In this document: one piece after another, positions 25,901 through 64,000 of the stretch | Position numbering within the stretch: position 1 is the stretch's first letter | How the letters are laid out: each line of letters opens with the position of its first letter | NCBI GenBank assembly: GCA_018389105.1 | Contig: JACATO010000334.1 | Coordinates: 992,001-1,056,000 of the forward strand | Direction of reading: 5' to 3' | Length of the DNA: 64,000 nt | Source: Nautilus pompilius | Lineage: Eukaryota > Mollusca > Cephalopoda > Nautilida > Nautilidae | Position numbers and translations under genes: made by a program | The notes under the pieces: generated by a model | What the model was told of the DNA's origin: nothing | The model's input: only the letters and a program-made list of their open reading frames with translations | Databases searched by the model: none

Positions 25901-25961
25901 TGGTGCCTCCGAAAGAATGAAGGAGAATCGCCGGAGGACATCACGAAGCGGGAAGCGGGAA

Positions 25962-25974
25962 AGCCGCCATGTTG
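25962..25974 (-). promoter_or_regulatory. YY1-type promoter motif upstream of NUDT19
   Basis: The minus strand reads CAACATGGCGGCT, matching the YY1 core ATGGCGGC, about 65 bases upstream of the NUDT19 ATG in GC-rich DNA. The position and strand suit a housekeeping promoter. The start site is inferred. Confidence 0.45.
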
Positions 25975-26444
25975 AAAAGAATGGAGCTGGCTGCTTATTC
26001 TCGCCTTCCAGAAAAATCGAGGTTAAAACAGAAAAATTGTACGAAAAATGGTTTTGTATGTGAACATCTGATATTTAATGCCTCCTGCAACCATCGTAGG
26101 TAATTTGGTGTATTAGACGCCCGTCTGTTTCGTAAAAAATAAAATGATGACTTCTTAATAGGATTGTTTTTTAATGGTTCTCTCCCTTTAATCACAGAAG
26201 GAAAATTAAAACTCAGTCAAGTCTTCTTCTTCCTTTAATCCCACCGTTGAAATTAAAACTAGAACAAAGAAAAGTCTCGAATATATTTTACTAGCTGGGG
26301 GGGCACCCGGCGCTGTACGCTGGGGGGGAGGGGGGTGGCTTCGAATCTCGCCCAGATTCTGAAGTAGCTACACCTGTAATTTGGGGCCTCTAGAGGCTAC
26401 GGTTCGACCGTGGAAGAGTAACCAACACTCAAAAATATGCATTA

Positions 26445-27507
26445 GACATCAGAACATACCTTGAGGATAGCCTGGCTAAAGAGGGAGTCTGACATCAGAA
26501 CATACCCTGAGGAAGGATAGTCTGGCTAAAGAGGGAGTCCGACATCAGTACATACCCTGAGGATAGCCTGGCTAAAGACCGATTCCGACATCAGTACATA
26601 CCCTGAGGATAGCCTGGCTAAAGACCGATTCCGACATCAGTACATACCCTGAGGATAGCTTGGCTAAAGACCGATTCCGACATCAGTACATACCCTGAGG
26701 ATAGCCTGGCTAAAGACCGATTCCGACATCAGTACATACCCTGAGGATAGCCTGGCTAAAGACCGATTCCGACATCAGTACATACCCTGAGGATAGCCTG
26801 GCTAAAGACCGATTCCGACATCAGTACATACCCTGAGGATAGCTTGGCTAAAGACCGATCCGACATCAGTACATACCCTGAGGATGCCGCTAAAGACCGA
26901 TTCCGACATCAGTACATACCTGAGGATAGCTTGGCTAAAGACCGATTCCCGACATCAGTACATGCCCTGAGATAGCCTGGCTAAAGACCGATTCCGACAT
27001 CAGTACATACCCTGAGGATAGCCTGGCTAAAGACCGATTCCGACATCAGTACATGCCCTGAGGATAGCCTGGCTAAAGACCGATTCCGACATCATACATG
27101 CCCTGAGGATAGCCTGGCTAAAGACCGATTCCGACATCAGTACATACCCTGAGGATAGCTTGGCTAAAGACCGATTCCGACATCAGTACATACCCTGAGG
27201 ATAGCCTGGCTAAAGACCGATTCCGACATCAGTACATACCCTGAGGATAGCCTGGCTAAAGACCGATTCCGACATCAGTACATACCCTGAGGATAGCCTG
27301 GCTAAAGACCGATTCCGACATCAGTACATACCCTGAAGATAGCTTGGCTAAAGACCGATTCCGACATCAGTACATGCCCTGAGGATAGCCTGGCTAAAGA
27401 CCGATTCCGACATCAGTACATACCCTGAGGATAGATTGGCTAAAGACCGATTCCGCCATCAGTACATACCCTGAAGATAGCTTGGCTAAAGACCGATTCC
27501 GACATCA
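26445..27507. repeat. 46-bp minisatellite, about 23 tandem copies
   Basis: Units begin GACATCAGTACATACCC and end GACCGATTCC. The spacing of the GACATCA starts is 46 bases (for example 26541, 26587, 26633). Each unit holds the perfect 11-base palindrome TAGCCTGGCTA, replaced by TAGCTTGGCTA in some units. The first two or three units at the 5' end are divergent, with GAGGGAGT in place of GACCGATT and a 4-base insertion in one spacing. Inner units are nearly identical, pointing to recent homogenisation. There is no open reading frame. The array lies about 550 bases upstream of the NUDT19 start codon. Confidence 0.97.
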
Positions 27508-33526: not shown

Positions 33527-36346
33527 ATGAGCTCCCCCCCCTCCCACTCCTCCTCCTCCTCCTCCTCTCTCCCAGACCACAGTGAATGCGTGGTGTTGGG
33601 CGAAGAGAGGGGTATCTCAGCAGAAGACTTGGCTTACACCAGCCTCATTCTGACCGAGCGACAGCTGAGACATCGATTTCATCGCATCGCCCATCTGATC
33701 GGGGCCGGCCCACAGAACGGGGCTGGTGGGTTTGCGTGCGTGTGTCAGCGGTTTTCTGGTTGGGAAAAAACTCTTTCTTGCGTGGAAAAAAAAAAAAAAT
33801 CGACAAAAAACAATAATCGCGAATATATGTTTGGCGCCATAATTCCACCGGGGACAATGGTGTTAGCAGCTGTCTGGTTAAACTACAGACTTCTGTTTCT
33901 CGTCCTAGTTAAACGTGTTTATCCACTTACCTGCCGTTTAATGTCGATACCACCCGAGTCCCGCTTGGTTGGCCATATATATATATATAATATATATAGG
34001 TCCAGAAACCAGGCTTTCAATGATGACCGAACTTACCGGTCTTTGTCAATTCGCTCATTGGAGAAAACCTCGTCTGTAATGTGTGGACAGTTTGTTTTTT
34101 TTTTCCTCCCATCTATCTCTGGTGACTCGAATTATGTCGCTGCTGTTGTATGTGCCAGGTTTTCCCTCAGCTCTCAACCCTCCACAGCGCGTCCTGCCGA
34201 GCCCTTTTACTTTACCCTATAAACAGAAACATTTGTAGGGACGGTTCGTTCATTATGATTTCTGTGTAATGATAGAATTTGCTTAATGTCTAAGGGCAAC
34301 TAATCATTCCATCCGCACAACGATAGAAAAGATACACACACAGAGAGAGACAGACACACACACACACACCATTATCACCTGACATCGTCACATTAAATGG
34401 CAGCTTCTTAGGTTTTCATAAATTAATGAGTTGCCGTTTTTGTAGTTTTATACCATAAATGTTGGCTTTCTTGTTAACTTCCACGTGGATAACGTTGATT
34501 AGAATTTATTTTTAAATGATTATTATCGTTGTTGTTGCTGTTATTATTAAAGTTTGCTTTAATCTACATTCGCTCAGTTAACATAAAACTAAATATAAAT
34601 ATCCATTAGAATCATTTTATTGATCCTCATCCATCGACGCAGAAAAACTTATTTATCGATTTTTGTCAGCGCTCACGTATTCATAGTTATCAAATAATCC
34701 AAAACACTTGTTGTTGTTGTCTTAATTGCACGCAGCCGGAGATAATCGATGTATAGATCACTCCAACGAACAACAAGCAAACTTCAGGAGACACGCCGGT
34801 CAGATCACGTGACCTGACGTATTTTCTCAATGATAGTATTATTTCTACCTGCAGACATCATACAGGTATGTCGTTTTTATCTTCCGCTTCCATTATTCAT
34901 TCTTATTTATTTGAGGTTTTACTCCAACCGATTTGGTCTTTGCTGAATGCAGGACGGTTCTGACCAATAAAATGTATGCAGACTTTCTCTATTTTGGAAA
35001 TCTGTTTTCTTAATGGACCGAAATTGTCTTGCGCTATAAAGCAAATAAAGGAATGGATGGATACGTAGTCGGAAGTAGATGGAAAGTGTAAGAATTTCTT
35101 TTCGGTTTTTCATGCAACAGAAAATAATGGCTGACGGAGTCCCCTCGTCGGTCACGGAGATAAATAAATAAACAAAATTGTAATTTTCGCTTTCTCTTAA
35201 GATCCCCACCCACCCCCTTTTTTTTCTTTTTTTTTTTTTTTTTGCAAAAGCGTTTATTTTGGAAACTAGTAAATCTATTATTTTACTTTTTGGAAGATTC
35301 TTTCATCCTTTGACCTAAATGGCGATTACCAATTCGAGTATTCGTGCCGGGAGCCGGTTTTGGGACGACCAAAAACACATCGCTCTGAAATCAATCCGGC
35401 TGTTAACTCAGTGTGGCACTTATGCCATAGCTCAGGGCTCACGCCTACCTGAGGGTATCCGAAATAATTCTCGTTCTTTCTTTTTAAATTTGCTTCTTTC
35501 TTCTCTTCTTCTTTTTTTTTTTAGAATCAGAAACAGTTATCGTTAATCCATCGCGCGTCTTATCGACAGTTCGATAACCTAAGAGAAATGGGGATTTCCA
35601 GATCTCATCTTTACCTCCCAGGAAAGTTTCCTTCCACGCAGCGGCCTTGGGGCGATCGAGCGCGACACGACGACAGGCGAGGGGTCAGATAGTCGACGAT
35701 AAATCTTCACCATTTTTTTTTATTATTATTATTATTTTTAAGGAACGTAAGCGACTGGACCTGATTGACGATAATTGATCAAATTGAAACCGAAACTCCG
35801 GCTATTTCGCTGAAGGCGATACAAAGAAACCGCTTCGTGTTATCTGGATTAAACAAATACAGCGAAGCGTAGATTTGGATATCGCGGACGAGAACGATCT
35901 TGAAGTCTGCGAGGAGGGGTCGCCACTGCTATTGAGCAACGACTCCGCCTAGCTGCGCCCCCCGAACTCCCTGGTTGCCAATGACTACAGGCAAGCGCTA
36001 CCAGTTCACTATCCCTCCTCTTCCACCTCACCTCCGCGCAGGTATAACGTAGTAATTCCTCTGAATCCATGAGAGGGTAAACAACTTCGGCGGCGGGTAC
36101 TGCGCTGAATGGTTCCGCCGCGTGCCGTCCAGACGTAAGCGACTTTGGGCGCCCATGGAAGTGTAGCGTTTGCCCACATTTATCTACTTGCTGACTTCTG
36201 TTGTTGGTTTTTTTGCAGCCCAGATGACGAGACCTCGAGAAGTTTCCAGAGCTAAACACAGCAGACGATATGAGGGACCCAGTGATTCGTCAGTCCCGGA
36301 GGGTCGTGTCGTATGCTCTGCTGCATACAAGAACGGCGGTAAATAG
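33527..36346 (+). CDS. Candidate two-exon gene, small protein of unknown function
   Basis: I do not recognise this protein. A first exon from ATG 33527 encodes a serine-rich start, then ERGISAEDLAYTSLILTERQ and a basic stretch RHRFHRIAHLIG. It ends in phase 1 at a donor G|gtgggt (33725). A second exon after a strong acceptor (gtttttttgcag, ending 36218) is open in the matching phase and encodes a basic, serine-rich tail ending RVVCSAAYKNGGK and TAG at 36346, giving 108 residues. The pairing of the two exons is inference, and either could belong to something else. The ATG context is weak. It would run in the same direction as the PRRT-like gene, ending about 200 bases before it. Confidence 0.3.
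34334..34370. repeat. CA/GA-rich simple repeat
   Basis: A compound run of CACACA, GAGAGA and CACACA. Confidence 0.85.
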
Positions 36347-36541
36347 CAGACGACAAGGATGAATATAAAAGTCCGGTTTTGCAAACTTTGAAATGGTGGG
36401 GGGTTTGTTGTTTGTTTTTTTTTTGGAAATGCCTGCCTGCCTTACCTTACCTGTGGTCCGTCTACACGGAAATAATGCGACCGGAAAGCGTTTGGCCGAA
36501 CGCTCGTAGTCGGTGAAGGTTCGCTGTCGTTCCGCTGTGCA

Positions 36542-39500
36542 ATGGCCGAAGAACGGATGCTGGTCGCGGTGCTGCTGCTGCTGACGCTTTCCCCTTTCGG
36601 GTCCAGCGCGTTTTCGCAGGGAAAATTCTCACCGAAAGTCGGCGCGCGCCCGGCTTCGGAAACGACGAGGGACACGCTTAAAGGGAGCTCCGGGGCGCCC
36701 GCTGTGCCGGGTGACCGGGGGGCGTCGCTGAACAGCGGTATCGAGGCTCCGGCCACGCGGACCCTGAGCCGGCTGCGGCGGAGGGACGTTTCCGACGCTG
36801 ACGAGTCGGGGTCTTCGGCTAAAGCTGACGTTTTGCCCGCAACGGGCGCCTCTCCCCCCGTCGAGCGGGTCACTGCCACGCAGCCGAGTGGCTCGCGAAA
36901 GTCCGCGCCCTTCTTCCGGTGGAAGCAGCCGGGCGTCTTGGAGCGGATGGCGCGCAACTTCAGCGGCGGAGGCCTCGCTTCGGCCGAAACTAAGGCGCAC
37001 GAGGTCAAGTCGGACTCGGCAGGAGCTTCAGCGGGCGAACCCAGCCAACCGACCCCCGACCCAGAACTGGTCCCGCTCCCGGAAACCGAGCCGGAACCCA
37101 ACTGGGAAGAGGCCTACAAGAGCTGGGGCATCGCCTGGCCGCTGCACGTCTACGTTTTTGCCGTCGCCTATTCGCTTATCGTTCTGCGGACCTCGATTAC
37201 TTTGTTCGGCGTGATTGGGAAGGGGCCGGAAATGCGGAAGAAAGCCATGACAGTGTCCCTGAACACCATGCTCTGGGCGTTCGGGTGTCTGCGCGCCGCT
37301 TCGCTGTTCGCTGATCCATACGGGGCGCGGCAGAAGATCCCGCGCGAGGCCACTCGCTTCCTGTGGTCCGCGTCCCTGCCCTGCCTCACGGCAGCGGTCA
37401 GCGTGATGTTGCTGGCCTTACTCGACACCACCAAAATGACAGTCGCTCCGCCCAAGTTCCAGAAACTGTCCACGATCTGCCTGGTCTCGGGCTTCCACTT
37501 CCTCCTGGTAATAAGCACCGACTTCGTCATAACGTTCACCCACAAAGCCGGGTTCTTGCTGGTCGTGTGCCAGGTCTTCTTCGTCGTCTGGGGAGTCGCT
37601 CTGTCGGTTGGATACACAGTCGTGGGCTTCAAAATCCACGGGAATTTTTCGGCGTCGAGAAGAGGAGATGCCACACAAGGTGAGAGCCGGTCTGAAATGT
37701 AAGCACTAAAGCAAATATACGAACAGCTTTGACCCCCCCTTTTTTTTTCATGGCTGCCGGGTCAGTGGTTATGCAGAAAGAAAAGTCCTGGTAGTGGATA
37801 TCGCTCCTTCTTGGCTCTGCGAATTTACCCCGGTCTACGTTCATTCATACTTCTGATCGGTGCGGGCCTTGAGGTTAGGTTGGTCGAAAGACAATACAAC
37901 TGGTGTCTATTATATTTTGATCGAATGTCCAGTCCAGCGACGTAGAAATCCCTCAAACTGACTCAAATATGCTGGACTAATTAACCGGTCAACTTTGCTA
38001 CCAGATTGATTTGTTTAGCCATTTCCTGTGAAAGTCCGATCTTGGCCATACTAGACATCGTCCCCTCGGAGTAGTTTATCTTCACCGAGCAATAATTTAA
38101 TTATGGAAAAAGTCGCATCCCCGACTGGTTAATCGGTTTGATGGCTGAGGGAATTAATTGTAGAGATTCTAGCGTTTAAATGCGCCCAAACTAAAGCCCA
38201 GTGAAAAGTGTATCTGAGAATCGTGTGGCTAACGCCAGGACCGTATCTAAGTAAAAATCGAAATTAAAATAGAACCTCGGGAGAGCTGGTCCTTTATTCA
38301 AAGCCTTAGTTAGGCAAGCGATGATGTTCCATGTATCTAGAAGCACTGCCCAGAGTTCACCCTTGGTCTGTTTTATTCTGTCCATGTAGTCCCAAACATG
38401 TTCAATAACATTAAGTTCAGGGCTTTGTGGACACAACTCTAATAAATATAGCATTTAAGTCTCTTTTTTGCGTTTATATTTTGATAAAATTGGCAGATGG
38501 CTGAGGTACATCCCCAAACCCGAATAGAACCTATTCTAAGCTTTACTATAAGCTACAGATGCATTTCCTTAGGTTCTTCTTTAATTATTCTTCTTATCCT
38601 ACTTTCTCTTGGATCCAAAAATGCTAACCTTTGATTCATCTGATTGAAAAAAAAATTATTCCATTGTCCTTGACTCCAGTTTTAGTGTCAGGTGACATAT
38701 TTGAGTTTCTTAACCTTCTATCCTTTGAATCCGTTTCATCCGACATTCTTTGTACCGTAGAATCACGAACCTGAACCACCGAGGAGTCTACCGGATCTTG
38801 CTTTACCTCGTTGCTCTATGTATTCCTGTGTCCTCAGAGAAGTTATCTTCAAGTACAATTTTTTTATCTTTTATGGATAGTTTTCTGGGTTATCCACACC
38901 TTGTCCTACCAGAAATTTAACCAAGATCTGAAATTATGGTTATACTGCTTATTTCGCGCTGGGTTTTATGTTGTTCGTGGAGAAATATCATTTCATGTCT
39001 GTTATTAGCAATCTATGCCTGAAAAGAAACAAAGCAAGCATTGGTGCTTTTTAAAGATACGCAGGCACATAAACACTGAGGACCCATGTAGCCTTTGAGA
39101 CATTGGCTTCACCCGAGCTGCAGATGCAAATTACACTGACCACATGATATGACAGGTGACCCCTGCAGCAGCATACGTGACTTGGACAGGCACGTTTTTA
39201 CTCAGTCTAACCGATATGGAGAAAGGCAAAGATAGTACAGCTCTCAAAAGGGCGTGACAAGAGACGGACGAGCTGCAGGTGGCTACAGTGGCCAGGCTGC
39301 TCCAGCTGTGCCTCACGAAGAGCTTCGTCGTCGCCCGAACCACCGATCACAGGTATCATGGTGGTGTCTGGAGCGCAGACCGGACTGACGGAAAGCGGGT
39401 GTGGTCCGACCAGTCGTGCTTTCCCGTTTTTTGTTTTTTTTTTGTTTTTTCTGTAGTAAAGACAAGAGAGGAGGACGGATTTGGGGAAAGTCACACGAAT

Positions 39501-47929: not shown

Positions 47930-50900
47930 TCAGTCATACTCTGACCCTATGGTAATACTGATGTCATCACCAACATTCAAAGTGGAATGATACCAGATAT
48001 TGGTGTCGAGTACAACTGAAAATAGAAAAGAAAAATACAGGCAACAGAAATCAACATTTTTAATACTTGTCTTGCTGACTGGATGCTTAAGCTGCAATTT
48101 AATCTCGAAAAGATCTGAAGCAATGAGAAACTTTCAACATATTTAATAATGAAAAGTAACACGTTTTCAAACACAACACAGAGGTGTGTGTTCTAATTTC
48201 CACATACATGGATTTTATTAAAATTGTTAAAGTCTCTAAATATGAGATGATGATAGCATTCCAATAATTAGAAAAGGTTTTATACACCAATGGCCTACAT
48301 TGGAAATGTTATTTAAAAATTTGGTTCTCCACATTTCATTAAATTAAATGTTTGGTAAATGAAGGTCAGCATCTGATAATAGGCTAATGACTAAACTCTA
48401 GACAAATCTCTTTTTTTAGCATTCTGATGCAATGTTTATTGAAGTTTAGTTTTTTATTGTTTTTAGATCAGTTACACCCCTGCAGTATTACACGTGAATG
48501 AAATGAAATTTGAGAGAAATTCTTTACATAATTTTAAAAAAAGATGTACCTTCATTTGCAAGATTCCCTACTATGGCTAAAAGTATACCAAAGTGACTAT
48601 AATCTCATGAATATCAAAATGCTTTAGATTCCTGTCATGTATTTACCATAAAAATGATTTTTTGAAAAGCATCAAAATCTTATTGCCAGAAACTGATTTG
48701 CCAAATGAAAATGTTATCAAATGTTAGTGTGTTTGGAGAAAAAAAAAACATTTTTTAACAGAAATACTTGTAACCGAGGAAGTTATTAGAATAAAGAACT
48801 TTTTAAAAAATGAAGTGTTTTTTTTTAAACTATTATTATTAATTTATATTTAGCTTAGTTGGCTATATAATTGCTATATTATTAGTTGGGAACTCAAAAG
48901 TAACCATTAGAATACAAAGCCTCATTTTAATATTTATTTTTTTGTAATTTATAGCAAAGGTTGTCTCCCTTTCCTTTTAAAATACCATCCCTATCAGTTC
49001 TCTTTATAGAATAAAATTGTATATAAAAATTTTAGAAACTTAACAAAACTAAATTAGTTTTTTAAACAGGTGCGATCCCCCGCCTTTCTCAATAGAATTT
49101 ATTGCCATACTGTCAATTCTACAACTGCAAATCTCGTATTAAATTAACAAAACCTAATTTTTAAAGTAAATTGACATCTACCCAAAGATTATTTTGGACC
49201 ACAGAGCAATTGTATGTAAACCAGTTTAAAGTCAGTTCTATTACATTTGATTTGTCCCTTTGTTTTACCTGTCTCTCTCTTTTGCTCCCCCCACTTTTTT
49301 TCTAAATATCTATCCCGAACATCTGCTATAGTTCATATACTAAGGACGTTCAAATGAAACACAGTTGAAATAGCATCGTTGTGATGGGTATTCGGCTTGG
49401 TTTCATTTGAACGTCCCTGGTAACAACCTAACAAATAAGAATTCACTGTCTAATTATCTGAAAAAGAACAGATTTAATGTTAAAGGTTTCTATGACTACA
49501 TTTCTTATTTTCTGCTGTTCATGAAATTGGCAATAAAAATGGGGGGGGGGGCTTTTATGAACACAGGCTGCAATAGAAATCAATCCACATTCTCAGTTAC
49601 ATAATTCCTGTTGATAAATTGCATACTACTGATGACCTTCTCCAATGCCACTCTAAAGAGAAGGTCTCACAAATAAAGCCAGTAATCTCCCAGGATATTG
49701 GGAAAAGAAATTAAAGTTGTCAGTAAGCGGAAAGAAATCACTTTATCAATAGCCACTTGGATAATGCAAAGTTTCTGCTTCGCAGATTTCTGAACATTTC
49801 ATTATCTAGCGCGGCAGACTTGTTATCTCGTATGTGCACTTCTCACTGCCGCTCACAAGCTTTCGAACGACCAGCGTGGCTGCCAATTTCACGCCAGTCT
49901 TCACCTGATTTCTGAGAAAAAGCTAGTGAGGGTAAAAATAGAATTTCTGGATAATTACTACAAACAAACACAAACGTGTATTTTCTATCTTTAATAAGAA
50001 AAAAAGTTTTTTTTAATTGCATCTCTTATCGTTTTTTTTTTAAAAAAGGCGATTTCACTTAATTTAAATTTCTCTGATTTCAGAAATCCATGATTTGTTT
50101 TGCAGCCCCTAACCACAATATAGAAAAAAATATCCCTTAATAATAATCATTCTTTATGAAAAAAATTCTCTCTCCTTTTCTCTACACAATGGCCATCTAC
50201 AAACGAATCTACAGACCTGAACTGTTTCTTGTGTGTCCCTCAAAGAAGTGAAATAAGATGCTGCGGTTCTTTATACCCTTTAGTAAAGTTGTCTTTTTTT
50301 TCTTCTAAACTTATCATCATTGTTACAAATGTTATTGGTTGTCTTTACGTAATTATCATTAAAATAACCATTAAATTCAGATTAAAACAATAAGTCTGTT
50401 CCCTTGAGAAATGTACAGTACATTAAAGCTGTGTTCCATGGCATATCCTTGCCCTGAGTTGAAGATGTCTCTCAGCGAGGAGCTAGAAGGGAGTTATTTA
50501 GCTTGATGACCAAGCAAGTTACCTGGGTAAGATAGAGTTATTTAGCAGTGGTCAGGTGCAGGCCAGTCAAAAGTTCACCTGTACTGAGAAAGTCCCTACT
50601 AAAACCCTTCATTTTTAGATATAAGAGGAAAACCAGCCAGCCAGCTGGTAAAGAAGTGTGAGAAGAACCATGCCAGGGAGGTTGGCACAAGAAAGATGGG
50701 AAGCAGAATTAAAAGAAATTGCTTTTAATATTTAGTCTTTTTAGTTATATATTAAGTGGGTCCTTTACTGTCATGAACCTAATAATCAGCCAGCCAATCA
50801 ATTAACTGACAAAATGGCCAATTAATCAGATTACCAATTCCAAGTAATTGGCACATCCCATTTAAATGCATATTAGAGAGATGCAGCTGCTACAACCAGA

Positions 50901-52545
50901 ATTGACAAATATATATATATTTTTTTCTTTTACAGTTTCCAGATATACATTCTTGAGTGACAGCAGGTTTTGACAAAAGCAAAAGACATCTGTGTGGGTT
51001 TTAAGCCAAACAAGAAACTTCTTGTTCAATTATTCCTTTTAGTTGTCTAAGAATGTAATGACCAGTGTTTAACTTAAGAGAGGAGCTTCCTTCAAATTAG
51101 ATCACAGTTCAACGTCTATAACAATCACCACCATTAATTCTTCAGAATGTTATAGCCATCCATAAACCAATAATTGACCTATGCTATTAGTTTCTAGGAA
51201 GATTTAATGGTTTCCAAATAGACTCAAGGTGTTTCTCTGATGAATGACTCAGCTATATGCTATTTTTCAACAGGTACTTCAGACCATCATTCATTCACAG
51301 GACCCTTAGCAGAGGGTAATCATTCAGTTAGTTAGTTGCCAATTATTCGTCCATCAGCAAAGATGACAAAGACCTTTGTGCTAGTTTGTGGGGTACGTGA
51401 CGTTAACAAGGTGGAAGAGCTATGAAACTGTTAGCACAGGAGTATTTGAGCATTTAATTACTTCTTACATATATTAGATAATTTACTAATTAAATTTTTA
51501 TTAAAACCAAGCTAGGAATAGTAGTAATCTTAAACCTGTACAAACTTATTGATGCTTTGACCCATTCCCGCTGAAGTAAAGATGTTGTGCCGGCTTACAC
51601 TCTTATTGCAAAAGCAGTCAATTCATTGTGCGCCAAGCTTACTCCAAAAAACACACTAGATAGAAGAGACTCTTTTATGGCAAACTTCAGTTTTTCCAAA
51701 GTAACTGTACAATTACTGAAACTTTTTAAGGTTAGTACTGAAGACAAGATATCATTAAAAATATTTACAACTGAAATTAAAAAAAAAAAAAGAAAATGCC
51801 ACTGAAATTATTTAGCCCTTCCATTATGGATTAAAAATTCCTGCACTCAGGACGTACCAAACAATAAGTCCTCAGGGTGCATGCCACCAAAATGGTTGCC
51901 AATGACTTTGAAATACATGAAGTGTTAAAGAAACATGTGCTTGCATCATGTGCAGCCCTTGAAAACTTACAAACCGGTAACTTTTTGACAGATTCTGAAC
52001 TCAAATTCTTAATCTATTCAATTAGATGTGCAACAAAAGTTAAAGTGAGCTTAAAATTTCTCTTTCTTGCTCTCTCATTTACACTCACTGTGCCTACTGT
52101 CCTCAAAAAACTTCATTTCTCTTGTAAAGTAGCCTGTCACATTAAATAAACTATGTTCATCTTCTCACACACAATCAGCAATTGTGACCTAACTACTAAG
52201 GATGTTCAAATGAAACCTGGATGCAGGTGTTTTGAAGTATTCTAGACCATTCTATTTTCACTGGAGTAATCATTCCTTGATTCTATATCGCTATACTCTC
52301 CCCAAGACACACACATACACAAATCAAATTTAGAACAATTAACCCTAAATATTCACAAAAGAGAAAAAACCAACAGTGGTGGAAAGCAAAAACATACCAT
52401 AAATAAATAAAATTTTCAAATAATGCAACATTCATCATCTTCAATGGAACATCCAGCCAATGAGTAATAAAATAGGAGCTGCAGCCAGACTTGGCGAGAA
52501 AACAATGAATATGGCAGAAGTATTAATTTTATGTTTATTGTATTT

Positions 52546-52592
<47 letters not shown>

Positions 52593-55500
52593 TGTGTGTG
52601 TGCATACTGCTGCCATTTTTCAGTAGTTAAAAAGAAATTCTGATACTTTGAATATTCAAAATACTAAAATGCAAGTACAAGGGAGATAACTATAGATTTT
52701 ATTGAAAAAAAACAACACGGATTAGATGTTTGGACATGGAGTGGAGTGCCTAATTAAGCTGATGGACAGTGGAAGACTGATCACCACTACAATCCCAAGG
52801 GTCCTGCAAATGCTAAGCAAAAAGCAGGTTACAGGATAGCAAACAGCTGAGGAATCCATCAGAAGCACTTCAAGTGTAGAGAGTGTGATACCTTTTCCCC
52901 CTCACTAATGGCACCTGTTGCTGCACAAGGCTGCCACACCATATGCTCATTTTGATATTAAAAAAAGTTTAATGACATAAAAAATTTAAAAATTCAGAAA
53001 GTTACACAGCTTTAAAAAAAAAAAAAAAAATCTAGTGGAATTTTAGATAAGCAGAATGGAGAAACATGCAAACCTACTTATTTCCCCAGGATTTACTGTA
53101 ACCTCAAGCTGTTTTTCACATTCATCGTAGCATTCTGGAGGCGGCTCCAAGGTCCATTTTTTCTTGCCAACGATCTGAGCCTGCCAAGATGGATGCTCCA
53201 CAGAATCAATCTGAAGTAAAGAAGAAACGCGTTGGCAGCTGGAAAATGAAATTTTCTTTCTTTCTCAAAATGTCTTTGTAGTCTTGTCTTGATTTTATGG
53301 ATGAAAAGCCTTCAGATACAATGTATCCAATGGCACTTTCTTTTTAATAGCAAATTGTTGTTAAACACAAACAAGGTACTTTTTTTTTTTAATTTTGCAA
53401 ACAAAATTTTTTTTTTTTACCCTAAATATTAGCCATTTTATGAGAGACTAGAGACATGGGTTGTGACATCTGTCCTAATCAAAATAATCTAACTTACAAT
53501 ATCTGCTGTTGCTGTGTTTTTTATTCAAAAGTGGAAAATCCCTATTGACAAAGGTGAGGCATAGCATGCGATTTTATGTAGGGTTTGACTCGTAATAAGT
53601 ACTCTGTCTTTGTAGATGTTTTCCATATGATAGAAAAACAGTACCACTTTTTATATTTTTACTTTTAAACCCTATACTGCAAAAGATAAATATATTACTA
53701 CTACTATGGGCATTATTTATTGAAAATTTTATTCCACCATTTGTGGCAACAAGAGTGTGTGTGTGTGTGTTTGTATAATATAGACACTCGAGTACATACC
53801 ATTTCTTAAGCAATGGCAGCATTCACATAATGATGAGAAATGTAATCTAATTATAATAAATTGTAAAAATTAATTTAACAGATTTTCAACAAGTAACGAA
53901 ATTAAAATCTAGAAATATCTTGCAATCTAAGAACATCTATCAGTAAACTGTTTTTGTGTTTTCTTTAATGGTTCTGAATTAATAGAATCTATCCTAATTT
54001 TTAAAGGAATTAGTCTGCCTTCTGAATCCCAACAAGATTCTACATATTTTGAAACAAACTTTGAATTCAAAGGCCTGTGTTGGAGATTCGGGTGGATTCC
54101 CCACTTCTGATATCTGACATCTGCGATATATTTAATGTACAAAAGCGCTAAATGAAATTCCTGCCAGCAGTGCTGCTGCTAATTAATGATCAGTGCCTTA
54201 TAAACACAGCAGGTTTGGCCATCGCTAATGGTAGTACGTACGTGCATTGCTGCTCCATAACCAGGACTGCCCATAAAAATCCAATCTACTCTACTAGATT
54301 CAGAATCCTCAGGAAGGAAATAGGGCCGAGAATAATGCTGTCGTAAAATACCAGCTACGTGGCGGTCACAGTTGCTCCTGAAAGGGAAATTTGAGCAATC
54401 TTTAAATAAATAAATAAATGGGAATACCTTGGCATAATAAAGGACTGCAGAACAGGAACAGGATTTACTACAGCGGCTAATGAGAGCACAAAACTTAGCC
54501 GTAACCAAATCAGGAATTATTCAATCAGAATGATAATTAAAGTAACAATAAAGGGCAGAGGCAAGCAGAATGTTTTGTCATAATTTATTGGAGGAGAAAA
54601 CTTTCTGAGTATTGATAAACAAAGATTCACATATTTAGTATTTCTTCAAATCAAAGTTAGCTGCTAAGACGATATATTTTCTTTTAAAAAATGTAAATAT
54701 AGAAATACCAGCAAAAGATTCCAAGAATAAAAAAAAAGAATAGAGTTTTAGTCATTTCTCAACCTCAGGAACTTATTTTTTCTCTCAATCTGAAGATTTA
54801 TAACAAAACAAACAAAAGAATGTAACATTTACAATTTTTTTTTAATAGATAACTTTTCTATGCAAAACAATTCTAAAAGACAAAAGTAAAATTCTTTCAG
54901 TGTATACTGAATATTACAGTAGAACCACTAATTCACTGTGTATCGAATTTAGCAATGAAATATTTTCCAAATGTTAAACATTTCTTTGAATCAGCAACAT
55001 TTATTGTATAATATTGCTGAAAATAACAAAAAGGAACTACCAAATTTTTAAATGTTGCATTAATATACCACAGGAACTAAAATCACCACTGCTTCTAATC
55101 CTACTGAAGATAATAGTTTATCAAACAGTTTACTTATGTAGATATCATATTAGCATCTCTTCAGAAGTTCATCTGAATCAATTAATTCACTACTCTTATC
55201 TCCACACAACAAATAAGTTTTATGGAGACTGCATTTTGCCACAAACTGAGGTGGAGAGATTTGGTAGGAACTCCTGTCTTATCTCATGTCACGCTTAGCT
55301 TCATCTTTGTCAAGGAGCTGTTATAGAATGAAAAGCCAAGACATGGGATTCTATTACTTTTTGTTCCAGTCCAGTAACTCTGATGAATTCTATTATTACT
55401 CAGCTAATTCCATCAATTCTTTAAGCCTCTCCCTACCTCCAAACCACTCTCCTGCTCATCAGTGATGACAATGAACACATAACCATTAAAATAGTGTCCC

Positions 55501-58500
55501 TTGAGGAGAGTGGAGTTGACAACCAACCAAAAGTATAGCTTTAAAGCCATTTTACACAAATCTGTTACCAAATTAAAGAGAAATTGAATTCTTAAGTGAA
55601 TTAACCAACCAGAGAGATACCTGTTCCAACATTTCAATCTCTTCAAGTTGAATGTAATACAAAATGTATTATTCTAAAAATTTAAATAAACCTACCATCT
55701 CTGTAATTTTTTCTTCTTTCTGGTAAAAAGAAAGAACCAATACAATAAAGTTTCTTAAATATAAAGAAAAATACATGTAATTCTCAAAATGTATTCATTA
55801 TAATTATTAAACTGTTATGAGTGGCAAGAACTCCATGGAATGGCTCCTTTTTGATTAACCCTCTTCCTACTGAAAGCAGCAGTTGAGGTGAGGTTATTTT
55901 GATTAACTCTCTACCTACTGCAAGAGAATATAAGGAGAGAATATCTTTAAATTAATGACTAATGAAAATAGTCAGGACAGGATCCTGAAATAGGAGTTAT
56001 CTTTCAATCAACCTCTTCCTGAAGTATGTCAAAGGGAGATAAGCAATAATTAGATCTTTTAAACTCACTTCCTAATCAAGAGAAGTTTGACTAAATGAAT
56101 AATTTTAAATTATTTCTTTGCAAAAAAAAAAAAATATACTGTTATTTGTCAGAGTTACTTCTCCTTACCACCATGCTTATTTTAAAGTCTCTCTTGGCAA
56201 ATGACATTGCAGTTACATAAAATTTTAGGTATGACCAGTCTCAAACTTTTGAGAATGAAGGAAGGACACAAAAAGTGGGAGACAGGCATATTCAGTTTGA
56301 TTTAGAGCATAGATTGCATTCTTAATGCAGTTTGTCTGAGACCGTATTCCTTGTAAACACGAGGTGTTATTTGCATGCTAACCACTTCTGAAGAACCAAT
56401 CAAAACTATTAAGAGGAATCAAGAAGACATAGTTTCATGTCTAAGCATGTAGTAACAGAGACATACCAAAACAGTGAGGAGATTATAATATTTAAAAAGA
56501 AGTACACAAAATAATCATATTTTTTTACAGAAACATCAAAGGGGAAGTAACTTTCACAATACTATTATCATCATTGTAACATTTCATTGTTGTGCAAACC
56601 AAAAAGCAAATGCTGTATGCTTGTTAAGCAGTAAATTAACAGATTTTCCCCTACTTTCTTCATAAACCTCCACATTCATCAATGTTTATGTTAAAGTGCC
56701 TCTGAATAAAATCCTTCTAATTATGACAGTAGGAAAAAGAAAGAAAAAATATAGCAGCAAGTGAGAAGAGACCATCCCACCACAATTCAGATCAAGGCTG
56801 GAATCACAACTGGAATATTTACAAGCAGGTCCATTACTTCTTTACTCAGAGGCAGCAGTCTATTTAGTTAGTGTTTGTTGGTTTTTTTAATGGTTTAAAA
56901 ACTAAAGCAGTTACCACAACTTAAACATCCCCCTATTTCCAAGTAAACAAAAATCAGCACTCTGGCACCCCTGGTTATTATTTTTAAACAGTGTATTGAC
57001 TTATCCAACACTCAATAGATTAATCACCTAGCATATGAAAATAATAAAAATAGTTTGATAACACACACTCTACTCTACTCTCTATCCTTCATTTGAATCA
57101 TAAACATTAACGAAAAGCATCAGATCAGATCTACAAGAAAACAGTCTCATCGAAAAACAAAACTGAAAATTGAAACTACAATACAAATGAGAAATAACTA
57201 CGTTATTAATGACTGTAAAGATGATGATAGAGTATGCATCTGTTGCAGATCAGATTTCCTGTTCCTTTTTCACTGTTTTTTTTTTTTTCCTTTTCTCTCT
57301 TGCTCTTAAAAAAAAAAAAATGCAAGATGACCCATGGTGTGTATCCCCTTGACCTGCCATAATAAACAGAAGTGTTAAACCCTGTTGCCATAAACAAGTC
57401 ATGGACACTGCATGTTGATTGGAATCTGTTCTCTTTACTAATGAGTCAAGATTTAGCCTTCAATGTGACTCATTATGCATGTTCATTTAGATAGAAAATA
57501 GAACAGGCAACCAGCCCACAAACATGGAAAAAGATCAATACAATTGTGGGTGGGTGATGGATAAGAATGAGATTCTGGATCCACATCAGACCATAAACAG
57601 GTGCAAATGGGGGTGACTTCATTTTAATGGATGATAACGCTCACCCACATAAGGCACATGTAATCAACCAATATCTTCAAGACCAAATGTGTTACAACCA
57701 GTGTTTTCCTGAGCTGAATCCTATTGAGAATGTTTGAGATGCTTTAGATAGACACACTGGCTCCCTCTAAGAACTGCAGACTTCTCTGATAAAACAGTGA
57801 ACTTCATTACCCGTGTTCTCATGATAGGGTTATAAAGTGAGTCATGTGTTGCCCTGGGGAGTTGGGGGAGCACACCCCCTATCGACTACCTCTGATTCAT
57901 TTAACATTCCTTATATTAGAATTCTCTTGTTTCCAGATTTGGTTCTGCTTATTTATCTATACCCCTCCAAAAAATTATTTGCTATTGAGATGATTCGCTG
58001 ACAAAAGTCGTAATACATAGAGGAGTTTTGTTGATCATTCGGTAACAAAGTTCCTATTTTTCTTGACTGAAAAAACAAAAAACAAAAAAAAACAAACCTG
58101 GTTTCTATAACAACTAAACTATTAAACTAAATATTGACCGTTTCTGCAGTCATTTGTTTGTTGAGAAGTGTAATGAAGAAAACTCACATTACACAATGTT
58201 ACTAGAGATAATCATCATGATTTTCTATTTATCGCCTTCCTTTTCTTTTATTTCAAGATTTTTTTAATTATACTTTGTCGTTTTAAACAATGATTTTTTC
58301 AAGAATTATAGCTAATAATGTAATCATGAACCGCAAGAAGGCACCTCCATTTCGTAATTCAAACTTTATGTGTACAAGCCCCCTAAATCTGTTTTAATGT
58401 AAATATTTAATTTTCTAAAAAATGTAAAATTCCTATTATAACACATTCCTTCCAACTAGGCCAACTGTAAAACAAAGCAATAATCTATCACAAAATCTCC

Positions 58501-61500
58501 CTAAATTTCATAGTGTAATAAGACAAGACAAGTGATAATCAGATGATCTACTTAGTCATTTCTGACTTAAATTAAACAACTAGTCAAAATAATTGCAGAA
58601 GTCCATAGAACAGGAAGGAAACAAAAGAACTAAAGCTACAATTACTAAAACACCAAAAGTTTTTGCTATTAAGATCGAATGAAAACAGAAAATGCATGCA
58701 ACATATAGATATCAATTTTTTTTCTTTCTTTTTAAATTAAGTTTTTATTTATAGATGGTGCAGAAAACCAGATATTATTAACTTTTAGGCCATCTATATT
58801 AATGGTAGCTGGACGTCATGCCACCCAAACATTATGCCAACAAACAGATAAAATGGGCAGAAAATCACGTTTCAGCAAGTGGTCATACTAACATCTAAAA
58901 ATCTAGACCTCTTGTCCACCAAGCCACAGTGGTATTGTGATGGCACATTTGACAGCGCACCTTTAGGAGCCTAACTGTTCACTGTTCATGTTATTATTGA
59001 TGAAACCCACACTCTGCCTTTGGTGTAGTGTGTAATGAAGAACAAATATGACATGAGGACACATACAACATCATATTCAGTTACATGAAGAACATTAGAA
59101 ACATAAATCCTGAGTCAGTTACAATTGATTTTGACCAAGCAGTTCTGAACATCATCAGAAAGTATTTTCAAACCACCACGGGTTTTTGGATGCTTTTTCC
59201 ACTCCACTCAATGTTTGTGGTGCAATATTCAGTCTCTTGGACTGTGAGCCTGGTACATATAAAACCAGAAAACGCTCTAATGATTAAAAGTATACAGGAA
59301 CTTACATTTGTTCCATCAAAGGATGTCACTGACACGTTTAATGCTCTGATGGCCTCTCTCAATAATGAAACAGATGAAAGAATAGCACACTTTTTGGCCT
59401 ATTTGGAGAGCACTTGGCTCAGTATTGTTACTTGAGGGAGATGAAGGCAATCCATGTTGGAGATTGAAATGTGGAACGTCAACAGCCAAGTTCAAGACAA
59501 TCTGCCCCAGATGAATAATTCTCTGAAGGGCTGACACCAAGCTTTCAACCAAAGAATGGAGATCACACCCATCAATTTGTAGGCTCATCACAAAATTAAG
59601 GAAAGAACAAGCCAGTATTGAAATTTTGACTGAGCAGGTTGCAATAGGATTGAACACAAGGCCACAAAAACAAAAGATAAAACATCATTAATAACCGCAT
59701 GAAGACACTAGTTGCCAACTATACCAATGAAGACGGACTTGTACGTTGAATGCTTGTAATCTGTGAATGGCATGATTTTAATTCTCTATGATTCACTGTG
59801 ATAAATTTCAATCATTGATTTACTACATTTCTATGGTTGTTTCAGAATATTTGTGTTGACGTTTTATGTTGTGTTTGTAATAAATTATTTGTGTATATTT
59901 CTTATTATTGTCAGCATAATGTACAAGCAGCATAAAGTCTCTGTTTGCATAACATCCACACCACAATATTAATAACTTCATAATGCATGATGATATAACT
60001 AAAGTTTCTTTAATTTTTCTGCTTTTTTGTGTTGGATTACCTTGACATGACATTGGTACCATCCCAGAGTGGAGATGGGAAACTTTAATTGTTGTTTGAA
60101 AAAGCTACTACATGTTGGCCAAAGCTGAGAATTCTATTTCCAGTGATTAATTTCTGTTCTAAAAAAACACTTTTCATTATTGTAATGCATCAACAAACAC
60201 AAGAAAGTCTTCATTGTTTTAATAATTAAAATGTTAAAAGGTTTCACTTTTATCATCTAAAGCTCACTTCATTAAGACCGAAACAATGACACTGTGTTAC
60301 TATGGTAACCTACAACTGTTTTTGTCTAGAAACGGTAAGCGAAGGAAACCAACTACATTGAATTGATTTTAAAATGCACTACCAATTTTGGAGTCATGTA
60401 AAATCTGAACGTATAATCTAAGCTGTTTGATTTATATATTGAATTAAATGTCGTCCAATTTTACATGTAAAAAAAAATGCATTTTGTTATCATTAAAGCA
60501 ACATCTTAGTGATTGGAGCTCAAAAATAATAACAGGTTAGAAAAACAACAGTTCTGACTGTCACGATGAGCCTCAATACCAAATCTGCTCACCAGTTTTG
60601 TTTTTTTTTTTGCAAGAGCCATGCAGCAGTTGCTCATTGAGTCTGCATTCTGAAGGCAGCCTGCGGTACCAGCAACTACAGCTGGTGAAGACCAGCCTCG
60701 AACCACAGAAGTGCGTGAAGAGAGGCTTGGCAACAAACTCAGCACCTAATACAGCATGCTCTCTGTTGGTGTCATGTCCGAAGATGATACAGGCCATGGC
60801 ATGACAGCAATTTGCTGTTCCAAAAGGAACTGAAAGGAGACCAAACAGTGCAAGGATAAGCACTGTCCTGCTGCATGAAATTCAGGCTGGGGTTTGCCTG
60901 AAAGAAAATGGTATAACCTGACTTAAAGAATATCATTCCTATGTAGAAAGGTACAACCATCACAGCATATGCCTGCCCATACCTTCAAAATTTGGTTGTC
61001 CAAACAATTAGTTTCATTTACACATCAGCCTGCTTGATGTTTCACCCAACACTGCCATACACTTGATCTGCCAACAGATATGACACACTAAATTGACTTT
61101 TGCATGTGAAGAGGACTCTTCCACACTTGTCAAGACATTTGCATATACAATGAAGCCACAAGGTACAGTACCTTAGTGAAAGAATGAGTCCAACATAGGA
61201 GATGCTTTACAGACAAGAGTATCTCACACAAGTGGTTACACATGGTATCCAGGTGCACCGGGCCATGTCTGTCTTGAGTTGCTTCCCCCTATAATTTTTG
61301 CAGACAAAACTGTTCTTTAGACATGCTATGCTGATGTAGCAGTCCTGCACAGCAGTTTCCAGCCTTGGCCTTACAGCATGTGCACAGTAATCACAAGTCA
61401 AATCTGTCCCAGTATGCCTGCCCTGCAGCAGAACATCCGTGGCATGGAGAGGGCTTAGCTATCTTGCAACTTGCCCCGATGACTAACCTGCTTGAAATAT

Positions 61501-63426
61501 TCCCACAGCAACTTCTCCCTTAAGGTAATTAACCACTTGGTGAACACACTCCACTCAAATGGGAATAGTAACCATGGACTGTCTCAAGTTGCTGTGTTGT
61601 ACACCAGTCTCAACAACTGAGAAAGCCTCCCTATATTGCCAAAACTCCTGGGTGAGAAAGCGTAAAGCTGCAGTTAGTTGTCTACCATAGAGCTCTGCCC
61701 ATCAAGTACCGTGAAGTACCCATAGATTTCAGCAGGGAGGCAAACCCACACGGACAACTGGGGAAGAAGAGTGAGAAAAATCCACATCAGGGAAAGACAC
61801 CAAACCATGCTGACCCTGACCAAGTATTGAACTTGGACTCTCAGCCTTGAGAGCCCAGCAGGCTGTCAGTCGCCCGCCTTCTCAAGTTAATTCCTGTAAA
61901 ATTTCAAGCTGCTTTCTCAAACGACTCAAGTAGTGCATGCAGATTTTGCAAAATCACAAAACTAACACTGATGCATTGAATTCACAAAATATATCATCCT
62001 TTGTTTAAGAACTACAGTAGTCATGATGTTGTAAGTAAGTTTCAGTGAACAGGGTTAGCACATTACATAGCTATCAACGATTTTCAGGTGTGTTTTGAAC
62101 TGGTTTAGTGTATATTTTATTTAAAAAATCATTTGTTACAAAATCTGATTTTATAAAAACTTTAAAATTTTTTCATTCCAAGTGTAATTACAATTTTGTG
62201 CACCATAATTTTTAGTGGAGCACAATGGAACATTTCAGATTTGCACAATAAGAAAATGGTCAAGAAGATGGCAATTTTTTTGTGTGTACTGTTTTAATTA
62301 TTAAGCATTTTGTGAATCACTTTTCTTCTTCACATTCTACCTAAACACTTATTCGCGGTAAAATAGCATTTTTTTTTGGATGGTTGCTTCCCCTTGACGG
62401 GTTCAGGAGATGAGGGGGTTAACATGGCTTCTTCCACTGTCACAGCAGCAATTGGAATAACTTGGTGTCATTAATAAAGATTGTTAAAAGTGTAAACAAA
62501 CTAATTACGATATGCAGAACGACAGGAAGCCCGACCACGAGATAATTTCGTGGAATATCTAAGGTAAAAATGCTAGCAAGAGCAGGAATTTCTTTCTTTC
62601 TTCCTCCGTCCTGACTCGAGGACGTCTCACGGAGGTGGGAGGAACGGTCTTCGTGATACAGACCGGGGGTGGGTGGGGGGACATGGGTATTTCGGTTTGA
62701 ACCAGCCAGCCCTCTTGGCTCTGTCCGGTTTTACTGGGCACAGAAGAGCACCAACAATACTCACCATCCAATGTACCAGGGTTTCGAGCCATCCTTCATG
62801 CGGGCTCGCTCGTCGCTCATCTCGAACACCTCCATCAGCCTGGTGAACTCGGTCTGGTAGGGGAAGAACTGGCAGGAGATGTCGCCGTTCTCCAGGGTGG
62901 CGTTGTCCGATCCGTACAGCCCCCTGAAGTACTCGAAGGAGAACAGCCTCGTGGCCGTCCAGTTCCGGGAGCCGTCGACGACGACCACGGGCCGGCCGGA
63001 GTAGGCGTACAGGTCCTCGAAACTCTTGGCCGTGATGTTCGAGACCCGGTCGACCGCCCGCACGCTGCGGCAGATCTGGCAGTTGACCGGGGGCCGGACG
63101 AAGTCGGCCAGGTACTCGCTGCCGATGATGCACGGCTGCTTGCGGATGTCCGACTCGCCGTAGATGAGGGTCGCGACCAGGGGCCAGTTCCACGCGCACG
63201 CCGCGCAGAACGCCGCCGCCAGGGCGAGCGCGAGGAAGCCCAAGGCGGCCCCCTGGCGAGGACGGGGGGGCGCCATTCCCTCCTTCCCCTTGGCTTTGAA
63301 CTTCTCCAAGCTCTTCAGGGAGGATATCTGCTCCGGGTTCAGGCCCAGCGCCAGGGCCTTCCGGTGGAGGCGCCGAAACAGGACCGCCGCCGGCTCCCCC
63401 ACGAACTGATCACTGAACGCTGCCAT
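47930..63426 (-). CDS. Type II membrane JmjC (cupin-8) domain protein, predicted Fe(II)/2-oxoglutarate oxygenase
   Basis: Four exons, 63426-62765, 54377-54242, 53210-53078 and 48015-47930, have exact GT-AG borders and consistent phases (2, 0, 1), giving 338 residues. The start is ATG 63426 in a good context (A at -3, G at +4). A cytosolic N-terminus of about 58 residues precedes one hydrophobic anchor (about 59-89). The rest should face the lumen or exterior and carries three N-glycosylation sequons (N130, N155, N175) and Cys pairs. YAYSGRPVVVVDGS and GSPGYGAAMHIDSVEHPSWQ are typical of JmjC/cupin-8 proteins. The iron ligands would be H266 and D268, split by intron 2, and H320 in WYHSTL. The C-terminus is SITIGSEYD. 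I know no named human ortholog and the substrate is unknown. The nearest concept is luminal JmjC proteins such as JMJD8. Exon 1 is strongly GC-rich, the others AT-rich. Confidence 0.85.
49340..49420. mobile_element. 81-bp mariner-type MITE with TA target duplication
   Basis: The ends share a perfect 17-base inverted repeat (GGACGTTCAAATGAAAC at 49344-49360 and its complement at 49400-49416), extending to 21 bases with two mismatches. TA lies directly outside both ends (49338-49339 and 49421-49422). The loop has no coding capacity. It lies in JmjC intron 3. Confidence 0.8.
49760..49945. promoter_or_regulatory. CpG-retaining block in JmjC intron 3, possible regulatory element
   Basis: High-complexity sequence with several CpGs (AGCGCGGCAG, CTCGTATG, TTTCGAACGACCAGCG) interrupts long AT-rich, CpG-poor intron. 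No coding frame or repeat structure explains it. Confidence 0.25.
52196..52216. mobile_element. Second copy of the mariner-type terminal repeat
   Basis: GGATGTTCAAATGAAAC preceded by TACTAA matches the left end of the 81-bp MITE with one C-to-T change at its CpG. No matching right end is visible nearby, so this is a truncated or decayed copy. It also lies in JmjC intron 3. Confidence 0.65.
52547..52603. repeat. (GT)n microsatellite
   Basis: About 28 GT units with a single GG interruption, in JmjC intron 3. Confidence 0.95.
57420..57860 (+). mobile_element. Tc1-like transposase fossil in JmjC intron 1
   Basis: The plus strand reads FILMDDNAHPHKAHVINQYL near 57617-57680, the Tc1 xQDNAxPHxAxxVxxYL block, followed by a decayed PELNPIENV and DALDRHTGSL. 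Stops and small deletions are present. It is opposite to the JmjC gene. Confidence 0.85.
58870..59660 (+). mobile_element. MULE-type (FLYWCH-associated) transposase fossil in JmjC intron 1
   Basis: Plus-strand pieces follow the order of animal MULE transposases: PQWYCDGTFDSAP with HVIIDETHTLPLV (58915-59022), INPESVTIDFDQAVLNII (59103-59156), VTDTFNALMASLNNET, then WNVNSQVQDNLPQMNNSLKG near 59470-59530, equivalent to the PRTNNSxEGWH block. The longest open piece is 59085-59435. Stops split the rest. Confidence 0.8.
60500..61450 (-). mobile_element. Tc1-like transposase fossil in JmjC intron 1
   Basis: The minus strand, read from about 61400 down, shows an N-terminal helix-turn-helix-like region, RVLFTCKSQFSV (the VLFSDESRF block) near 61110, LNFMQQDSAYPCT (FQQDNAxPHT) near 60880, then a decayed C-terminal helix ending near 60590. 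Each block is in a slightly shifted frame. It has the same orientation as the JmjC gene. Confidence 0.7.
61690..61890. repeat. SINE/LINE-tail-like interspersed repeat
   Basis: The stretch around AAACCCACACGGACAACTGG, with a later GTATTGAACTTGGACTCTCA and GGCTGTCAGTCGCCCGCC, has the layout of the widespread 'headers-and-dictionary' repeats of fishes and invertebrates (CACACGGACA...TTGAACCCGGGTCTC...). It looks like one worn copy. The family assignment is by resemblance only. Confidence 0.4.
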
Positions 63427-63610
63427 CGTCAACCTTCACTGTCGGCGGTTCCTGGGAGACTGGGGCTGCTGCCGCCTTCTGTCCGCCTGGCCATCGACGA
63501 CCCGACCCATGCTTCGATCGTCGAAACTCCCTGGACTAATAACTGCCGCATACGTCATCATTAGACGCTTTACGGATGAATCCAAACGGAGTTGTTGCCC
63601 TTTACCTTAG

Positions 63611-63623
63611 ATACCGCCATTTT
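63611..63623 (-). promoter_or_regulatory. YY1-type motif upstream of the JmjC gene
   Basis: The minus strand reads AAAATGGCGGTAT, close to the YY1 core, about 190 bases upstream of the JmjC ATG. It has the same orientation relative to its gene as the NUDT19 motif. Confidence 0.35.
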
Positions 63624-64000
63624 TTTTTAAAAAACTTTGTTTCACCTGAAAGCGAGAATGGATCGACCAGGTCATTACTGCAGTTAGGGTCGTACTTTCA
63701 AGCTTTGCCACTTCCTTGCTTCAGTAGTTTAAATTAGAATAGGAAATGTAAAATGCCATAAATTTTGTTTTCTTTTTTTCCTTTTATTAAAATATATATA
63801 CTGAGTTACTTCATCCAAGGCAGTCACAGGCAGGACCGATCCATAAACAAGTCTAGAATATCTCCTCCTTTTATTTTATTAATTAAGAAAAAATCAGAAA
63901 GTCTAGAAACACCCCTTGCTGAACTACGCGGTACCTAAATACATTTCTAGAAGTATCCTCCGGGGCCACGTGTTTGTCGACAAGCTTAGAGAAACAGACA
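63624..64000. other. Upstream flank of the JmjC gene
   Basis: Mixed AT-rich sequence with a few CpGs and no coding frame or repeat that I can recognise. Confidence 0.5.

Follow-up and report, generated by a model that had tools for sequence, protein, structure and literature searches.

A four-exon gene of Nautilus pompilius predicted to encode a membrane-anchored Cupin_8/JmjC oxygenase with an intact iron-binding triad

The window analysed here, a 64,000-nt stretch of the Nautilus pompilius genome assembly (GCA_018389105.1, contig JACATO010000334.1, positions 992,001 to 1,056,000), contains a minus-strand gene which raises the question of whether a JmjC oxygenase with an intact iron site may be held on a membrane anchor and face the lumen of the secretory pathway. 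An earlier reading made from the letters alone (the sequence-only reading) had proposed such a protein, with no named human counterpart, and its interpretation was partly supported by the present analysis.

Splicing and translation joined the four exons (Table 1) in frame, exactly as had been proposed, with junction phases 2/0/1, GT donors, and AG acceptors preceded by pyrimidine-rich stretches, and gave a product of 338 amino acids followed by a stop codon. Another in-frame stop codon precedes the ATG by four codons. As read from these features, the locus looks like a real, complete and intact coding gene. Its 5′ region at 62501-64000, spanning the promoter side and exon 1, is CpG-rich: the two 1-kb windows concerned had GC contents of 0.62 and 0.53 and CpG observed/expected ratios of 0.96 and 1.05, respectively, compared with a median ratio of 0.25 in the 95 AT-rich 1-kb windows. 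The HxD motif is indeed built across intron 2 as the sequence-only reading had noted, but the split motif adds little to the point attached to it, that skipping either of the neighbouring exons would destroy activity, because the lengths of exons 2 and 3 are such that skipping either one shifts the frame anyway.

Table 1. Exons of the minus-strand gene and other features located in the window.
Feature	Position	Strand	Content
Exon 1	63426-62765	−	662 nt, ends in phase 2; start codon, basic 59-residue tail, putative anchor (residues 60-78), start of Cupin_8, N130, N155 and N175
Exon 2	54377-54242	−	136 nt; residues 221-266, last codon H266 (predicted first Fe ligand)
Exon 3	53210-53078	−	133 nt, ends in phase 1; opens with I267-D268 (predicted second Fe ligand); W275, Q276, K283 (2OG lysine), C293 and C297
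Exon 4	48015-47930	−	86 nt including stop; H320 (predicted third Fe ligand), T332, last strand
Presumed transposase remains, intron 1	57340-57890 and 59052-59435		Tc1-like and MULE-like, decayed
Inverted repeat, intron 3	49338-49422		32-nt arms, 81% complementary, 21 nt apart
CPSF1 exon	16297-16572	+	
Open frame, presumably NUDT19-like	25178-26074	−	
Open frame, presumably of a proline-rich transmembrane protein	36542-37699	+	
CpG-island-like stretches	25001-26500, 36001-38000 and 62501-64000		at least the last one over a first exon

In the Pfam search, the product scored above the cut-off for Cupin_8 (PF13621; 38.8 bits vs 27.4, E-value 1.3e-9) over residues 135-292. The match covered profile positions 3-172 of 252 and spanned exons 1-3 with the first two junctions; the model is a curated one, built without reference to the window. 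Against Pfam JmjC (PF02373), residues 302-332 stayed below the curated cut-off (16.4 bits vs 24), and the one match obtained from NCBIfam was far below its cut-off (11.6 vs 39 bits). At the level of Pfam Cupin_8, and at that level only, the product is thus placed inside a characterised family.

The nearest solved protein was JMJD6, a bifunctional arginine demethylase and lysyl hydroxylase (phmmer against PDB, E-value 2.5e-7), aligned over residues 121-290 and, weakly (4.8 bits), over residues 299-332 in exons 3-4. The 22 sequences returned at E-value ≤10 comprised four of JMJD6, 17 of JMJD5/KDM8, and one unrelated oxidoreductase (E-value 0.98), and JMJD5/KDM8, with a best E-value of 0.016, was not the best-matching family. 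When a three-row profile was used as the query, JMJD6 reached 119 bits and JMJD5 57 to 59 bits, followed by KDM7/PHF-type histone demethylases (46 bits and less) and FIH (38 bits), in a ranking which may be favoured by two of the three rows being bacterial. No rows named JMJD4 or HSPBAP1 were returned by either PDB search, and two names in the profile search leave the family ambiguous. Relatives among bacterial sequences were in turn identified in five plasmid records at E-values up to 0.01, with the best in Nostoc (1e-11), and at 11 loci in genome contigs, out of 100 pattern-matching stretches. A viral or phage origin was rejected, no relative being confirmed in viral contigs (two scans, 8 and 23 stretches), phages or PHROGs.

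The single exons were also recovered with a profile of 14 sequences (12 proteins from bacteria or plasmids plus a fragment each of JMJD6 and JMJD5, with the product left out) when the 2177 stop-to-stop ORFs of at least 20 residues in the window were scanned. Exon 1 ranked first (E-value 1.7e-5, model positions 6-63), exon 3 second (1.7e-4, 137-169) and exon 2 third (0.0048, 118-143), with the next ORF at 0.35; because the rows of the profile had been found by their likeness to the product, this ranking is a consistency check and no independent control. In single-sequence hits, exon 1 was matched by JMJD5 and JMJD6 with respective E-values of 0.003 and 0.21. AlphaFold2 prediction for exon 1 alone, from the single sequence, gave a mean pLDDT of 37.9 and was unusable for the fold.

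Exon 4 alone was not significant in the scan (E-value 4.3) and is therefore the weakest exon, placed by its frame and splice sites together with the H...T columns in a 15-row alignment. Before the last strands, eight residues (291-298, including C293 and C297) separate the aligned stretches in the product, compared with 41 (212-252) in JMJD6. A missing exon was considered as the explanation and rejected, since the eight-residue stretch lies inside the contiguous DNA of exon 3.

The predicted active site was compared across the same alignment, the 15 rows of which (JMJD6, JMJD5, the product and 12 proteins from bacteria or plasmids; a further row, L007, was dropped for its wrong frame) were picked by likeness to the product. 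The intact HxD...H triad claimed earlier was in line with the relatives: H266, D268 and H320 were identical in 15/15 rows, and so was K283, the equivalent of the 2OG lysine K204 of JMJD6. Y218, counted as the equivalent of JMJD6 Y131, was kept in 14 of the 15 rows, and W253 and T332 are the equivalents of JMJD6 W174 and T285. Two positions of the 2OG pocket were changed. JMJD6 T184 corresponds to A263 in the product, with S or T in all 14 other rows, and JMJD6 N197 to Q276, with N in 13 of the 14 other rows, the JMJD5 row deviating. According to the available text of the crystal study, K204, Y131, T184 and N197 contact 2OG in JMJD6 (PMC6663879), and the accessible part of a 2008 model study lists W174, T184, N197, K204 and T285 as predicted 2OG residues conserved in metazoan JMJD6 (PMC2453528). 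With A263 and Q276 in place, the product might bind 2OG differently or not at all. On the basis of the aligned columns, iron binding looks intact, and binding of 2OG by the product, though altered, is probable.

The two replacements also bear on the comparison with JMJD8. JMJD8 is described, in the text available, as an N-glycosylated and EndoH-sensitive JmjC protein of the ER lumen with a signal peptide which may remain uncleaved and serve as its anchor, with a proposed role in protein complex assembly and folding, and with His replacing Asp in the Fe site, as shown for human, mouse and rat (PMC5684140). The product shares this layout, being JmjC-only with an N-terminal hydrophobic signal, a lumenal side and three candidate N-glycosylation sites, all of which are predictions for the product; D268, in place of His at the Fe site, sets it apart by what the accessible description gives for JMJD8. 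The product could accordingly be thought of as a lumenal pseudo-oxygenase which has kept the fold and assists folding or provides a scaffold, the kind of role put forward for JMJD8, and the changed pocket residues A263 and Q276 would suit such a role. However, a pseudoenzyme need not keep the iron triad and the 2OG lysine, both of which are intact here, and we regard a purely structural role as rather unlikely. Because JMJD8 has already been reported as a JmjC protein of the ER lumen, at least as far as its available text goes, a lumenal JmjC protein is no new idea, and the interesting point is that the product combines an intact iron site with a putative anchor.

The best solved match could also point to a divergent JMJD6 orthologue, cytosolic or nuclear, which carries an unrelated hydrophobic N terminus. 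The HxD...H motif and the equivalents of K204, W174, T285 and Y131 are common to both proteins, and JMJD6 itself was once described, misleadingly, as a type II transmembrane receptor, according to the accessible text (PMC2453528). However, identity was 24% over 193 columns, the loop before the last strands is much shorter than that of JMJD6, and the product ends six residues after T332 whereas the JMJD6 chain continues; a membrane anchor is a further predicted difference. As two of the five predicted 2OG residues called conserved in metazoan JMJD6 are replaced (T184 by A263, N197 by Q276), the product is not JMJD6 by the residues tested, and orthology appears highly improbable. For the absence of a named human counterpart, as claimed in the sequence-only reading, the comparison by name covered proteins of solved structure, the best of which was JMJD6 at the low identity given above.

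The bacterial Cupin_8 proteins (of Nostoc, Chitinophaga, Photorhabdus and others) share the domain with the product at 20-27% identity over the aligned columns, as well as the Fe triad and the lysine in 12/12 rows, but unlike the product they carry S/T and N at the two changed pocket positions and lack a hydrophobic anchor. The maximum 19-residue hydropathy in the 12 bacterial rows was 0.94, in comparison to 2.28 in the product, with the reservation that the Nostoc row begins late and that starts were chosen mechanically. The product seems to differ from those named JmjC proteins that were comparable.

One hydrophobic segment of 19 residues, at positions 60-78 and with a mean Kyte-Doolittle value of 2.28, was identified in the product, in agreement with the single transmembrane anchor proposed earlier. 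The 59 residues preceding it are basic (11 K/R, 5 D/E), and the charge difference between its flanks (4 K/R and 1 D/E in residues 45-59; 2 K/R and 3 D/E in residues 90-104) favours a cytosolic N terminus, i.e. the type II topology that had been predicted. We take the R-R-L-H-R-K run at residues 18-23 to be a possible arginine-based ER signal.

If the segment were a cleaved signal peptide, the oxygenase would be soluble, and either lumenal or secreted. The residues A76-C77-A78 directly before W79 fit the small-x-small rule for signal peptide cleavage, and if translation began at a second Met, residue 51, which has G at both −3 and +4, only a short basic stretch would precede the segment; by contrast, translation from the first ATG (A at −3, G at +4) gives the 59-residue basic tail, which is more typical of a signal anchor. 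Cleavage is considered unlikely, and an uncleaved type II anchor is the preferred reading.

All three N-glycosylation sequons of the sequence-only reading (N130, N155 and N175) are present and are located on the C side of the hydrophobic segment, agreeing with type II topology. Their number is not significant for the part counted as lumenal, i.e. the 248 residues from residue 91 on (shuffled mean 1.18, P 0.097, 10,000 shuffles). The lumenal cysteines had been described as paired, which had to be given up, since their count is odd: of the seven residues C99, C116, C119, C185, C224, C293 and C297, at least one must be without a partner in the same chain. Six of these columns were without Cys in the other rows, and C224 had Cys in one other row; the pattern would be in keeping with a gain of cysteines in an oxidising compartment.

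With an established reading frame, splice-site consensus, domain match, set of ligand residues, and hydrophobic segment, the product is rather probably an intact type II Fe(II)/2OG hydroxylase of the secretory pathway with its Cupin_8/JmjC domain in the lumen. If expressed, it would be a single-pass type II membrane protein, the C-terminal Cupin_8/JmjC domain of which would face the lumen of that putative compartment. Fe(II) would be bound by H266, D268 and H320, and 2-oxoglutarate mainly by K283 and Y218, and the predicted activity would be side-chain hydroxylation of a protein that is secreted or membrane-bound, the presumed substrate class. AspH and P4HTM, which are not members of JmjC/Cupin_8, are comparable in location and chemistry only. 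In the available texts, AspH is a 2OG oxygenase of the ER that faces the lumen and is held by a membrane anchor (PMC6817910), and P4HTM a membrane-anchored 2OG oxygenase of the ER (PMC10083964).

Among the literature matches listed, no membrane-anchored or lumenal JmjC family other than JMJD8 was found. A paper on gene loss (PMC1382263) mentions neither jumonji, JmjC nor cupin, the available text of a study of Drosophila JmjC mutants (PMC5770425) has no mention of 'transmembrane', and in a JMJD6 review (PMC5352680) the six residue names looked for do not occur. More tentatively, the gene might represent an undescribed invertebrate family of anchored, catalytically competent secretory JmjC oxygenases in which the 2OG pocket has changed and C293/C297 hold a compact loop together. 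Such a family would have no member among the named human proteins and would hydroxylate extracellular proteins of an as yet unrecognised class; this wider proposal is possible, with the odds against it. If active, the product would hydroxylate secretory or surface proteins as a JmjC enzyme whose iron site is intact, unlike that of JMJD8, and mass spectrometry could be used to search for the additional extracellular hydroxylation arising from it.

Elsewhere in the window, the CpG-island-like stretches comprised seven 1-kb windows with GC contents of 0.53-0.65 and CpG observed/expected ratios of 0.96-1.19. The 95 AT-rich windows had a pooled CpG ratio of 0.37 and a TpG ratio of 1.24, a pattern which looks vertebrate-like, although the neighbouring gene CPSF1 points to an invertebrate. 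The CPSF1 exon was identified by Pfam CPSF_A (E-value 2.9e-12) and human CPSF1 (6.9e-13, 28/46 residues identical to the human chain, a divergence greater than expected of a vertebrate), and other plus-strand ORFs in 1-17 kb look by eye like further CPSF1 exons. The minus-strand open frame, which by eye we take to resemble NUDT19, matched Pfam NUDIX below cut-off only (17.1 vs 21.1 bits). The open frame which, again by eye, presumably resembles a proline-rich transmembrane protein has an N terminus resembling a signal and several hydrophobic segments, with no Pfam match above cut-off. Searches of the 64 kb with Rfam (gathering thresholds) and a tRNA scan gave no hits.

Within the introns of the gene, decayed remains which we take, by eye, to be of Tc1-like and MULE-like transposases were noted in intron 1, and a Pfam search on 59052-59432 gave no match. 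The core of the inverted repeat in intron 3 recurs at 52204, and this repeat is perhaps the remnant of a small transposon.
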